This document shows positions 4,476-64,000 of a DNA stretch of 64,000 bases, in pieces. The notes below the pieces were generated by a model. That model worked only from the letters and a program-made list of their open reading frames with translations. It ran no database searches and was not told where the DNA came from. The position numbers and the translations under genes are program-made. Position 1 is the stretch's first letter; each line of letters begins with the position of its first letter. Origin of the DNA: Synechocystis sp. PCC 6714 (GTDB taxonomy: Bacteria > Cyanobacteriota > Cyanobacteriia > Cyanobacteriales > Microcystaceae); assembly GCF_000478825.2 (NCBI RefSeq), contig NZ_CP007542.1, positions 186,001-250,000 of the forward strand, given 5' to 3'.

Positions 4476-5504
4476 GTGCAAACCTATGGCAAAGACACCG
4501 TTCAATATGAATGGTGGGCCGGCAATGCCCGTTTCGCTGATCAATCGGGGCTATTCATAGCAGCCCATGTGGCCCAGGCGGCCTTAACAGCATTTTGGGC
4601 CGGAGCCTTCACCCTGTTTGAAATTTCCCGCTTTGACCCCACCCAGGCCATGGGGGACCAGGGGTTAATCCTACTGCCCCATTTAGCTACCCTTGGTTGG
4701 GGCGTGGGCGATGGCGGACAAATTGTGGACACCTATCCCTACTTTGTCATCGGCAGTATCCACCTGATCGCCTCGGCCGTACTCGGGGCCGGAGCTTTAT
4801 TTCATACCCTGCGGGCCCCCGCTGACCTAAGTACCCTCCAGGGCCAGGGCAAAAAATTCCATTTCACCTGGGAAAACCCCCAACAACTGGGGATAATTTT
4901 GGGTCATCATCTCCTGTTTCTGGGGGCCGGAGCTCTTCTGTTGGCGGGCAAAGCCATGTATTGGGGTGGCCTGTACGATGCCACCAGCCAAACTGTACGC
5001 CTAGTCAGCTCACCAACATTAGACCCTTTGGTTATCTATGGTTATCAAACCCATTTTGCCAGCATCAGTAGCCTGGAAGATCTGGTGGGGGGACATATTT
5101 TTGTTGGTTTTCTGCTCATTGGTGGAGGTATTTGGCACATTCTGGTGCCACCTCTCGGTTGGGCCAAAAAGGTTTTGCTCTTTTCTGGAGAAGCCATTTT
5201 ATCCTACTCCCTGGGGGGCATTGCCCTAGCGGGATTTGTAGCGGCCTACTTCTGTGCCGTTAACACCCTGGCCTATCCGCCGGAATTTTATGGTCCGCCT
5301 TTGGCAATTAAATTGGGAATTTTTCCCTATTTTGCCGACACAGTGGAACTGCCCATGCATGCCCACACCAGCAGGGCTTGGTTAGCCAATGCTCACTTTT
5401 TCCTGGCCTTTTTCTTCCTCCAAGGTCATCTCTGGCACGCACTACGGGCTTTGGGTTTTGACTTCAAACGGGTCGAACAAGCGTTTGATTCCCTGCAAGC
5501 CTAG
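4476..5504 (+). CDS. isiA: Iron-stress chlorophyll-binding protein CP43' (IsiA)
   Basis: Chlorophyll-a antenna protein of the CP43/Pcb family that forms rings around trimeric PSI and free dissipative aggregates under iron or oxidative stress. The 342-residue product has six hydrophobic segments with paired histidines (for example [28 protein letters not shown]) and lacks the large lumenal loop of CP43. It starts with GTG at 4476 behind a strong GAGGAGG site. It heads a stress cluster with a mini-ORF, isiB, a hydrolase, a DUF2555 gene and coaBC all in the same direction. Confidence 0.97.
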
Positions 5505-45688: not shown

Positions 45689-47398
45689 ATGAGCTATCGG
45701 ATGGACCGCCACAGCTACGCCCACACCTTTGGCCCGACGGTGGGGGATAAAGTCCGGTTAGCCGATACAGAATTATTTATCGAGGTGGAACAGGACTATA
45801 CCACCTATGGTGATGAGGTCAAGTTTGGCGGCGGTAAGGTGGTGCGGGATGGCATGGGACAATCTCCCTTAAGCCGGGCGGAGGGGGCGGTGGATGTGGT
45901 AATTACCAACGCCCTAATTCTCGATTGGTGGGGCATCGTCAAAGCCGATGTGGGCATTAAAGATGGGCGCATCTGTGCCATTGGCAAAGCGGGAAATCCC
46001 CATATTCAAGACAAGGTTTCCATCATCATTGGCCCCAGCACCGAGGCGATCGCTGGAGAGGGCATGATCCTAACAGCGGGAGGCATTGACGCCCATGTGC
46101 ATTTTATTTGCCCCCAGCAAATTGAAACGGCCATAGCTTCGGGGATTACCACCCTAGTGGGGGGGGGCACTGGGCCAACGACGGGCACCAATGCCACCAC
46201 TTGTACTCCCGGGGCATGGAATATTCACCGTATGTTACAGGCGGCCGATGCTTTCCCCGTTAACCTCGGTTTTTTGGGTAAAGGCAATGGCAGTCAGCCA
46301 GCGGCCTTAGCAGAACAAATCAGGGCCGGGGCGATCGGTCTCAAACTCCATGAGGATTGGGGCACCACCCCGGCAACCATCGATACCTGTTTGAGCGTAG
46401 CGGAAGATTATGACGTTCAAGTGGCGATCCACACCGACACCCTCAATGAAGCAGGGTTTGTGGAAACCACCATTGCCGCCCTGAAAAATCGTGTCATTCA
46501 CACCTACCACACCGAAGGGGCCGGTGGTGGCCACGCGCCGGACATCATCAAAATTTGTGGAGAGTTGAACGTCCTTCCCTCCTCCACCAATCCCACCCGG
46601 CCCTACACGGTCAATACCCTGGAAGAACACCTAGACATGTTGATGCATTGTCACCACCTCGATCCCGATATTGCAGAAGATGTGGCCTTTGCTGAATCCC
46701 GTATCCGGAGGGAAACCATTGCGGCGGAAGATATTTTGCACGATTTGGGAGCTTTCAGCATTATTTCCTCCGATTCCCAAGCCATGGGGCGGGTGGGGGA
46801 AGTGGTCTGTCGCACCTGGCAAACGGCCCACAAAATGAAGGTGCAACGGGGCTCTCTAATTGGTGAAAGGGGAAATAACGATAATCTCCGGGCTAAGCGG
46901 TACGTGGCCAAGTACACCATCAACCCTGCCATTACCCACGGCATTGCTGAGGAAATTGGTTCGGTGGAAGTGGGCAAATTGGCAGACCTGTGCCTTTGGA
47001 ATCCAGCCTTTTTTGGAGTTAAACCGGAATTAGTCATTAAGGGGGGCATGGTGGCCTACGCCCAGATGGGGGATGCCAATGCTAGTATTCCCTCCCCTCA
47101 GCCGGTGCATATGCAACCCATGTTTGCCAGTTATGGCGGGGCGATCGCCGCTACGAGTGTCACCTTTGTGTCCCAGAAAGCGGCCAAAAAAGATATTGGG
47201 GAAAGGTTGGGACTGCAAAAACCAGTGGTGGCGGTGAAAAATATTCGTCAGTTAACGAAACGGGATTTAAAACTAAACGATTATTTGCCCCACATTGAGG
47301 TGGATCCGGAAACCTACGAGGTGCGGGCCGATGGGGAATTACTCACCTGTGAACCGGCCATAGTGCTACCCATGGCCCAACGCTATTTTCTGTTTTAG
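45689..47398 (+). CDS. ureC: Urease alpha subunit
   Basis: Catalytic subunit hydrolysing urea to ammonia and carbamate at a dinickel site. The carbamylated lysine is in [12 protein letters not shown], metal histidines are in [11 protein letters not shown] and [10 protein letters not shown] and [12 protein letters not shown], the flap cysteine is in [11 protein letters not shown], and the aspartate is in [11 protein letters not shown]. 569 residues, normal. No other ure gene is adjacent, as in Synechocystis, where urease genes are scattered. Confidence 0.97.
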
Positions 47399-61004: not shown

Positions 61005-62684
61005 ATGTTGGAACACTTCCCCTGGCTGACAACGATCATTGCCCTGCCGTTAGTCGCCGCCCTCTTCATTCCGTTAATTCCCGACAAAGATGGCAAACAA
61101 GTCCGCTGGTATGCCCTAGGTGTAGGTCTAGCGGATTTTGTTTTGATGAGCTACGTTTTTTGGACTAACTACGACATCAGCAATAACGGTTTTCAGCTCC
61201 AGGAAAAATTTAGCTGGATTCCCCAATTTGGGCTCAGCTGGAGTGTTTCCGTGGATGGCATCTCCATGCCCCTAGTGTTATTGGCCGGATTGGTTACCAC
61301 CCTTTCAATTTTTGCCGCCTGGCAAGTGAACCATAAGCCCCGCCTGTTCTACTTTTTAATGCTGGTGCTCTATGCAGCCCAGATAGGCGTTTTTGTCGCC
61401 CAGGATATGCTCCTACTATTCATCATGTGGGAACTGGAATTGGTGCCAGTTTACCTTCTCGTTTGTATCTGGGGTGGCCAAAGACGGCAGTATGCAGCCA
61501 TGAAATTTTTGCTCTACACCGCTGCCGCTTCCATCTTCATTCTTGTTGCCGCCCTGGGCTTAGCCTTCTATGGTGATGTGACCACCTTTGACATTGCCGA
61601 ACTTGGTCTAAAAAATTATCCGATCGCCTTGGAAATCTTTTTATACGCCGGCCTACTGATTGCCTTTGGCGTTAAATTAGCCATTTTCCCCTTCCATACC
61701 TGGTTGCCCGATGCCCACGGAGAAGCCTCTGCCCCTGTCTCCATGATTCTGGCCGGAGTACTGCTAAAAATGGGTGGTTATGGCCTAATCCGTTTGAACC
61801 TTGGCCTATTGGAAGATGCCCACGTTTACTTTGCGCCCATCCTAGTCATCCTTGGGGTAGTTAACATCATCTACGGTGGTTTTTCCTCCTTTGCCCAGGA
61901 CAACATGAAGCGCCGCTTGGCCTACTCCTCCGTTTCCCACATGGGCTTTGTGCTACTGGGCATTGCTTCATTTACTGACTTGGGTATCAGTGGGGCCATG
62001 TTGCAGATGCTCTCCCACGGTTTAATTGCCGCCGTACTCTTTTTCCTTGCCGGTGTCACCTATGACCGGACCCACACCCTTTCCTTGGCCCAGATGGGGA
62101 ACATTGGCAAAGTAATGCCCACGGTTTTTGCCCTGTTCACCATGGGAGCTATGGCATCCCTAGCCCTCCCCGGCATGAGCGGTTTTGTCAGTGAATTAGC
62201 TGTATTCGTTGGGGTCAGCTCCAGTGATATTTACAGCACCCCCTTTAAAACGGTGACCGTGTTCCTCGCTGCGGTGGGTCTAGTGCTGACTCCTATTTAC
62301 CTACTATCGATGTTGCGCCAACTCTTCTACGGTAACAACATCCCCCCTTCTTGTAACCTAGAGCAGGATAGTCTCTCCCCCAATTCTGACCAAGAAGCTG
62401 TTTGCTTTGGCACCAATTGTGTACTGCCCGGCAATGCCATCTATGACGATGCCCGGCCCCGGGAAATTTTCATTGCGGCTTGCTTCCTGCTACCGATTAT
62501 CGGGGTGGGTCTTTATCCTAAAATAGCTACCCAAGTTTACGATGCGACCACAGTAGCCGTGAACAATCAAGTCCGCCAATCCTACGTACAGATTGCGGAA
62601 ACCAATCCCCGGGTCTATGCGGAAGCTTTAACTGCTCCCCACATTCCCACCACGGACTTTGCCACTGTCAAAGTTCAACCCTAG
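61005..62684 (+). CDS. ndhD2: NDH-1 subunit NdhD2
   Basis: The second NuoM-type antiporter subunit in the window, 559 residues. It keeps [11 protein letters not shown] and [25 protein letters not shown]. It differs from NdhD1 by an extra Cys-containing loop near residues 445-480 ([15 protein letters not shown], then CFGTNC) before the last helices. In Synechocystis, ndhD2 is a stress- and light-inducible paralogue used in a variant NDH-1L complex. Confidence 0.93.
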
Positions 62685-62702
62685 TGGTCTAGTCTTTTGA
62701 GC

Positions 62703-62726
62703 AAACCTCCTGTCTATCAGAGGTTT
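62703..62726 (+). other. Hairpin after ndhD2
   Basis: AAACCTC (62703-62709) pairs with GAGGTTT (62720-62726), 18 bases after the ndhD2 stop, with no T-run. It also supplies the AGAGG that would have been the ribosome-binding region of the 85-residue gene before insertion of the following element. Confidence 0.4.
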
Positions 62727-62942
62727 ATGAACCCCTTCGTTTGCGGAAGGGAGGATGTCAAAAAGGGGAGCCTTAAGGACGAGCAGAGCGTTAAAATGGG
62801 GATAGCTAGGTACGGCACCATTGCATAGCCTTCCTAGAGCTGGCTTTTAAGGTGCGATGACAGCTCCCCGGCTTTCGCACCCTCTGCTCCCATCCTGACC
62901 CCAAGCCGTCCTAAAGGACGGGGCTTAAGCCCCGTTTTTACC
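62727..62942 (+). ncRNA. Insertion-like structured RNA element flanked by ATGAAC repeats
   Basis: A 216-base segment bounded by ATGAAC at 62727-62732 and again at 62943-62948. Predicted pairs: a 5' hairpin 62733-62738/62746-62751; P1 62781-62788/62882-62889 (8 of 8); P2 62791-62796/62845-62850 (6 of 6); P3 62807-62810/62833-62836 extended by 62804-62806/62839-62841 across a bulge; P4 62851-62857/62875-62881 (7 of 7). The P4 loop TCCCC (62865-62869) pairs with GGGGA (62798-62802) as a pseudoknot. P2, P4 and P1 abut. It resembles a HEARO/IscB- or IS605-type guide-RNA element without its protein. Class unproven. Confidence 0.6.
62919..62939 (+). terminator. Intrinsic terminator directly before a start codon
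   Basis: CGGGGCTTAAGCCCCG (62919-62934) is a perfect palindrome followed by TTTTT (62935-62939), three bases before the ATG at 62943. An alternative hairpin, CCGTCC (62906-62911) with GGACGG (62916-62921), overlaps its 5' arm and is mutually exclusive with it. Confidence 0.8.
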
Positions 62943-63200
62943 ATGAACGTAGAACTTCCTAATCCGCAGCAATTGACCCCAGAAGAAACCCAAGAGTTGG
63001 ACTACCTGCGTACTTTAATAGAACAGGCGGTGGCCAATGGTGTAGTTACCAAGGAAGAAGAATCCAACATCAAGTCCTGGGCGCTACATTGCAAGCCTCG
63101 TTATGAACTGCTTTCCCAGGAACTGGCCATGTACCGGGAATTGGTCACCAATAAAATCAATGCTGGTTTACTCAAGGGAGAGAGCTTTTCTGACCTCTAA
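62943..63200 (+). CDS. Small helical conserved protein
   Basis: An 85-residue protein, mainly helical and charged (TPEETQELDYLRTLIEQAV, then NIKSWALHCKPRYELL). No membrane segment. Its ATG lies three bases after an intrinsic terminator and has no ribosome-binding site of its own, probably because an element was inserted just upstream. Its stop overlaps that of the convergent kinase-like gene. Function unknown. Confidence 0.7.
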   Translation: MNVELPNPQQLTPEETQELDYLRTLIEQAVANGVVTKEEESNIKSWALHCKPRYELLSQELAMYRELVTNKINAGLLKGESFSDL

Positions 63201-64000
63201 ATAGGCAAGGGTGTGGAGGGCGAAAATTTTTCTCTACCATGGTTTGTACTTATTTGAGATGATATGGCGGGCCATTGTACCAAGTAGTAATAACCAGTGG
63301 TGTCGCTGCCCTGCAGAAAAATTTTTCCTTGATGACTTTTGATGAAATAAAAACTGAGGATTAGGGCTAAAATCCGTTGGCAATGGTGGCCCTGATTTTC
63401 CTGACTATGGCCCTGTAGTTTGAGGGCTAAGTGTTCCAAAGTTAATGGTACAATCACTTCTCCCTGATTTTCTTCTGGGTGTTCTTGCAGGGGCCCACCA
63501 TGGGATGTGCCCGGGATTAGTAGATCCTGTAGAGCTATCTGGGGATAGTCGGCCCAGACAGAGAAATGCAAGTATTCTCGGTCCGAAGAAGCCTGGATGC
63601 GTAATGTGCCATTGGTTATCCCCTCCCCCAATAAACTGAGGAGAAGATAGTATATTCCTTGCCTAACTTTGACCCTGTCCAGGGGCCAATATTTCAAGCC
63701 TGACTCTAAGGAAAGGTTAAAGTTCAATTGATTTTGGCTAAGTATGGTTGCCATTTTATCGCGCCAATATTCCCCCAATAATTCTAAATTGACATTGCTG
63801 ATCCTTAGACCCTGGCGATCGGGCCTGATTCGCTCCATTTCTAGGATTTCTTCGATAGCTTGACCGATCCTTTGTCCACTCTGGTGAATAATTTCTAGAT
63901 ATTGTTTTTGCTTCTCATTTAATTCCCCAAAAACTCCACTGTTGACCACACTGGCCATGCCAATTATTGACGTTAAATCCCGTTGAATACGGCTGAGGTG
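63197..64000 (-). CDS. Degenerate sensor histidine kinase, partial at window edge
   Basis: The frame is open through 64000, so the N-terminus lies outside. The visible part includes a dimerisation helix (RDLTSIIGMASVV, then LNEKQKQYLEIIHQSGQRI) and a C-terminal ATPase-like region (LDRVKVRQGIYYLLLSLL). The usual SHELRTP phospho-histidine box is replaced by IQRDLTSI and the N-box asparagine is not seen, so catalytic activity is doubtful. It could be a non-catalytic sensor or a pseudokinase. ATG 63958 is only an internal methionine. Confidence 0.72.
   Translation of the reverse strand, partial: HLSRIQRDLTSIIGMASVVNSGVFGELNEKQKQYLEIIHQSGQRIGQAIEEILEMERIRPDRQGLRISNVNLELLGEYWRDKMATILSQNQLNFNLSLESGLKYWPLDRVKVRQGIYYLLLSLLGEGITNGTLRIQASSDREYLHFSVWADYPQIALQDLLIPGTSHGGPLQEHPEENQGEVIVPLTLEHLALKLQGHSQENQGHHCQRILALILSFYFIKSHQGKIFLQGSDTTGYYYLVQWPAISSQISTNHGREKFSPSTPLPI

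Follow-up and report, generated by a model that had tools for sequence, protein, structure and literature searches.

A probable decayed composite of IS200/IS605-family ends in front of a start codon in Synechocystis sp. PCC 6714

What is the 216-base block that lies between two copies of ATGAAC, at positions 62727 and 62943, directly in front of the gene for an 85-residue protein in Synechocystis sp. PCC 6714? The initial annotation of the window, the whole stretch of 64,000 nucleotides analysed here, had described the block (62727-62942) as a structured RNA element inserted exactly at a start codon, either a solo guide-RNA element mobilised in trans or an unrelated riboregulator. The two ATGAAC copies are indeed present, and an insertion element is involved, IS200/IS605-type end sequences having been identified in the block; however, the block limits do not hold as insertion boundaries, with homology to a transposon right end (RE) already starting at 62720. 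We consider the block very probably a decayed composite: ends of IS200/IS605-family elements, left where a chromosomal rearrangement has joined two regions.

The region begins with a gene for NAD(P)H-quinone oxidoreductase subunit 4 (61005-62684, plus strand; NCBIfam NF009212, E 4.7e-278), of the ndhD2 type, ndhD2 being the name used in the initial annotation. Its native 3' flank (62685-62701, plus strand) is common to two relatives up to about 62701, as seen in alignments with loci L042 and L043, and the following 18 nt (62702-62719) lie outside the matches and can pair with 62720-62726 in the fold. Then come a plus-strand RE piece (62720-62761), a segment of 71 nt without significant match (62762-62832), a minus-strand left end (LE) with adjoining body (62833-62946) and the 85-aa gene (62943-63200, plus strand). 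No ORF of at least 60 aa starts and ends inside the block, and neither tnpA nor tnpB is present within it.

The perfect helices reported inside the block were recovered, both the one of 8 bp, GAGCAGAG (62781-62788/62882-62889), and those of 7 bp, GGGGAGC (62765-62771/62863-62869), GGTGCGA (62851-62857/62875-62881) and ACGGGGC (62918-62924/62929-62935). Helices of at least 6 bp number 16 in the block, against a shuffle mean of 5.7 (0/200 shuffles reach 16), while 14/200 shuffles reach its four helices of at least 7 bp and 72/200 its single helix of at least 8 bp. The fold of 62727-62942 has -83.9 kcal/mol (z -2.77), and none of 200 shuffles is equally stable. Folded alone, the segment 62905-62942 gives z -3.05 (0/300 shuffles), 62703-62759 gives z -1.95 (11/300) and the middle, 62760-62904, z -1.72 (21/300 as stable). 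The self-complementarity of the block exceeds chance, and a large share of it falls in transposon-end hairpins: at 62906-62939, the helix list and folds show CCGTCC/GGACGG as the LE hairpin and, in competition with it, ACGGGGC/GCCCCGT, which runs into TTTTT on the plus strand. The 8-bp helix pairs LE-side sequence with the stretch between the RE and LE pieces, and no homologue of this pairing was found. The folding above chance and the hairpin with a U-tract immediately 5' of the start codon would suit a host riboregulator, either a small RNA or a leader of the 85-aa gene that is expressed and under selection. This reading seems unlikely to us, as an Rfam scan of the block gave nothing at gathering score and otherwise chance-level scores, the block as a whole has neither a further copy nor a homologue in the five genus genomes searched (PCC 6714 included), and the leader differs in the relatives read.

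The left piece points to a tnpB-type element. The CGGAAGGGAGGATGTCA segment had been likened to an IS605 right end, and its alignment to the REs of tnpB loci confirms this. Alignments of 62720-62761 to the region immediately 3' of tnpB, 42-44 nt long, were obtained for L002 and L003 of the same genome and for L006 of the genome G003, with local scores of 56, 52 and 60, respectively, against a shuffle maximum of 35.5 (0/500 each). The RE matches of the genus search reached E 5.9e-6 in G003 and 7.1e-5 in PCC 6714, and tnpB directly precedes all five of them (L002 and L003 in PCC 6714; L006, L008 and L010 in G003). Since tnpB lies just upstream in 5/5 matches and the proteins of L002 and L003 are TnpB according to both Pfam and NCBIfam, we interpret 62720-62761 as an IS200/IS605 right end, truncated upstream, from a tnpB-bearing element. 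The same segment was not reported on its own by a profile of 16 tnpB-less elements, described below. Of three LEs compared with the overlapping plus-strand stretch 62717-62751, one can also be aligned to it (5/500 shuffles as good; 46/500 and 197/500 for the other two), so that LE sequence may be present there in addition to RE sequence. As the RE homology begins at 62720, it takes in the first ATGAAC. IS200/IS605 elements are not known to duplicate their target on insertion, and the ATGAAC pair is therefore best read as chance. Some tnpB elements appear to be decaying in this genome, where the tnpB of L002 has an in-frame stop close to its 5' end and L123 retains just a 34-aa tnpB match, together with an RE.

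The right piece belongs to a different type of element. The profile, built from 16 related elements without tnpB (four incomplete ones of 20 were left out), matches 62946-62833 on the minus strand over model positions 4-129 of 401, with E 6e-7 in an nhmmer search of the whole 64-kb window. The match comprises an LE (about 62904-62942) and about 70 nt of adjoining body. When the two parts are scored separately, 9.1 bits fall to the LE and 1.6-2.3 bits to the adjoining body; 0/500 shuffles reach either value, nhmmer reporting hardly any shuffle. BLAST of 62760-62903, which excludes the LE, found besides itself nothing below E 0.089 in 50 genomes of the taxonomic family, and only itself in PCC 6714 at E up to 1, a full tnpB-less element of that genome (L013) not being matched either. 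The body match therefore rests on the profile, BLAST without the LE having given no clear relative. A comparison of 62760-62942 with 291 genomes of the order gave matches with E no higher than 0.01 in 113 of them, PCC 6714 among these. Up to two candidates were scored per genome, and of the matches listed, all but the window's own fall in query positions 3-52, which correspond to the LE. Among 28 loci with a similar LE that were fetched, 17 have a tnpB match; five of the 11 without are shorter than 2 kb. An LE of the same kind is also carried by L129, a tnpA- and tnpB-bearing element of PCC 6714.

The position of the LE accounts for the apparent precision of the insertion. The target preceding the LE is TCATC in L002 and L003, CAATC in L013 and mostly TTACC-like or TTATC in others, and family copies with an intact left side mostly have TCATC. 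In the window, the LE follows TCATG on the minus strand, against the TCATC of related elements. The minus-strand TCAT in the second ATGAAC, which is the ATGA of the start of the 85-aa gene, thus resembles the LE-side target TCATC, a resemblance that explains the impression of an insertion at ATGA. Start-codon placement is in this way explained by the target preference of IS200/IS605-type elements. HEARO elements prefer ATGA, and the block, with its compact fold and adjoining ATGA, had been likened to a solo element of this type (IscB omega-RNA). We judge a HEARO origin extremely improbable: the covariance model RF02033 is unmatched at E up to 10 both in 62400-63250 and in the genome (control genomes gave a signal in 2/14 cases, below cut-off), the RRXRR domain of IscB (PF14239) is not found in PCC 6714 and is present in one of the five genus genomes, and the block ends match TnpB elements instead. 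The genus relative G002 has two IscB-type RRXRR domains (L127 and L128), one with an internal stop.

Judging from these alignments, the RE piece lies on the plus strand and the LE piece on the minus strand, in opposite orientation, which argues against one intact insertion between the ATGAAC copies. The block has RE and LE sequences homologous to tnpB-bearing elements, as a remnant derived from IS200/IS605 does, and does not have the LE and RE hairpins in direct order that mark an intact element. It resembles IS200/IS605 elements with tnpB in its RE sequence and hairpin, its LE sequence and hairpin and its target-side motif, and differs from them in consisting of end pieces only, in opposite orientation, with neither tnpA nor tnpB. 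Alternatively, the block might be a single mobile unit, intact though unusual, whose two sides are an RE and an inverted LE. Both pieces do lie within 240 nt and the complementarity inside the block is above that of shuffles; nevertheless we hold such a unit to be very unlikely, since the combination is duplicated neither in the five genus genomes (PCC 6714 included) nor in 72,556 plasmid records, where the block had no match, and the LE-to-RE order is direct in the elements read (L003, L013 and L122). The inverted-repeat relation of the block halves is weak (36/1000 shuffles as good). The expectation of further copies in the genome was borne out for both ends, and not for the block as a whole.

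The neighbourhood in relatives points to a rearrangement. The ndhD2 genes of G001 and G003 are 90% identical to that of the window over 1680/1680 bases, and an MFS-type gene comes next after ndhD2 in L042 and L043. L015 and L016 have an SRPBCC-like gene ahead of the 85-aa gene, and the same SRPBCC-like gene lies upstream in L082 (Synechocystis salina LEGE 00031); the names SRPBCC, MFS, cbiD and glnA are presumed from the translations alone. In PCC 6714, a cbiD-like gene comes after the SRPBCC-like gene (C1:2664569) and the 85-aa gene is absent there, the window copy being the only one found; a 72%-identical MFS-type gene is located elsewhere. An empty site between ndhD2 and the 85-aa gene had been anticipated in related genomes; in the two close relatives examined the genes are not neighbours, which places the block at a synteny breakpoint and leaves no empty site there. 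In reading these loci of PCC 6714, no transposon end was noticed beside the SRPBCC-like and cbiD-like genes or the MFS-type gene, and the reciprocal junction of the rearrangement was not found in this genome. It had also been proposed that removal of the block would join AGAGGTTT to ATGAACG and restore a normal gene start. This does not agree with the relatives, in which the 85-aa gene starts GTGAAAGT after TAGGAGGTTG: its orthologues in L015 and L016 have a GTG start after AGGAGG, a leader replaced by the block in the window. Both the leader of the relatives and the window contain GAGGTT, which is not clearly beyond chance (shuffles as good: 29/500 for L015, 91/500 for L016 and 117/500 for L082).

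A decayed composite could have arisen as follows. A minus-strand element from a small family lacking tnpB would have inserted 3' of a TCAT or TCAC target, corresponding to the ATGA or GTGA start of the 85-aa gene on the other strand, which would set its LE against the start codon. The truncated plus-strand RE now beside the ndhD2 3' flank would derive from a tnpB-type element. A deletion or inversion involving such copies may then have joined the ndhD2 neighbourhood to the 85-aa gene with loss of the other ends, leaving the RE, 71 nt and the inverted LE in place. With these parts missing, the block has presumably lost the capacity both to transpose as a unit and to produce the RNA of the parent element, and its present effects are likely limited to the hairpin with its U-tract and the replaced leader before the 85-aa gene. 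The hairpin (62918-62939, plus strand) is terminator-like, leading into TTTTT just ahead of the start codon, and might reduce expression of the 85-aa gene. Reading the block as a scar averts a false claim of a new riboregulator in the window.

The right piece is related to a family of ORF-less elements, about 335-400 nt long, in which IS200/IS605-type ends enclose a covarying RNA core. PCC 6714 has two full copies, L013 (1495-1850), a full element from LE to RE without tnpB, and L122 (1029-1370), which is 79% identical to L013 over 342 nt. Other loci assigned to the family are L093-L110, L113-L126 (except L123 and L124) and L072. At a limit of E 0.001, L013 has matches, some of them RE-only, in 36 of 50 genomes of the taxonomic family, and in nine of these there are at least 14. 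The core-to-RE stretch was obtained from 26/27 loci, 22 of which were aligned (alignment A1; L097, L098, L101 and L107 were left out) and have many invariant columns in common. RNAalifold predicted 50 pairs in A1, 26 of them changed on both sides; without the outer three pairs, 97.7% of cells pair and both-side changes occur in 26/47 pairs. Cells with both-side changes number 156, against a shuffle mean of 43.9 (0/500 shuffles reach this), and pairing falls to 33-45% when the structure is slid by 1-3 columns. As the structure was derived from A1 itself and the sequences are related, these two controls lean toward it.

A model of the core (R1) finds L072, a locus without a tnpB match from another genome of the order, with 149.6 bits. 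In 22 other sources at E up to 1 it finds only L058 (20.1 bits, model positions 120-143 only) and L062 (19 bits), with no match in L005, L007, L009 and L011 or in the tnpB loci L002, L003 and L006. The elements L005, L007 and L009 (all in G001) and L011 (in PCC 6714) are tnpB-less, of similar size and with the same kind of ends, and have different interiors. The window gave no match in the same search at E up to 1, and its best R1 score (8.3 bits, E 0.025 over 701 bases) covers the first 29 positions with 133 model positions skipped. According to the profile, the window copy has the LE and adjoining 5' body of the family, the body alone being weak, and it lacks the covarying core of its relatives, which argues against an intact RNA element. 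The proposal of a solo, trans-mobilised element consequently fits the ORF-less parent family and not the window copy. TnpA Y1 has three matches in PCC 6714, one partial and with stops, and the presence of tnpA suggests that related ORF-less elements could be moved in trans. The 3' third of the profile matches the tnpB end and RE in L124, and about 64 nt of a family member match four plasmid records: in three the match lies under a gene annotated as IS891/IS1136/IS1341 transposase, TnpB or IS605 OrfB, and the fourth has no annotation. By sequence, the 3' part is TnpB-like, and in the conserved RNA it may resemble a TnpB guide-RNA scaffold. We tentatively suggest that the scar could be a relic of an undescribed cyanobacterial ORF-less family of solo guide RNAs that depend on TnpA for movement and on TnpB as a partner, both supplied in trans, although we hold this to be rather less probable than its opposite; the guide-RNA function would be a property of the parent family. 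A conserved structured RNA in tnpB-less elements of many cyanobacterial genomes would offer a natural test of whether guide RNAs spread separately from their nuclease.

Several described systems are comparable. PATE-like elements of Halanaerobium are ends-only IS605 elements without ORF, for which frequent mobilisation by a transposase acting in trans is reported (PMC7290912). The block similarly consists of ends only and has no ORF, whereas PATE are described with LE and RE in normal order, unlike the block, and the parent family differs from them in its conserved RNA-like core. IStrons combine a group I intron with IS605 (PMC4227781) and thus carry a structured RNA within IS-type ends, as does the parent family, whose scanned loci differ in having no Rfam intron match and, more generally, no Rfam match inside the elements. 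A 187-nt MITE with ISL3-like ends (PMC11448079) is distinct from the element studied here. IS200/IS605 is among the highest-copy IS groups in PCC 6714, with five against one in PCC 6803 (PMC4060947). IS200 or IS605 was not found in the main text of a review of prokaryotic MITEs (PMC10969869), and no cyanobacterial ORF-less RNA elements of IS605 type were recognised in the literature searched, whose partial coverage is no proof of absence. Elsewhere in the window, IsrR and 5_ureB_sRNA have Rfam matches above gathering scores at 4869-5046 and 45845-46130, respectively, both on the minus strand.
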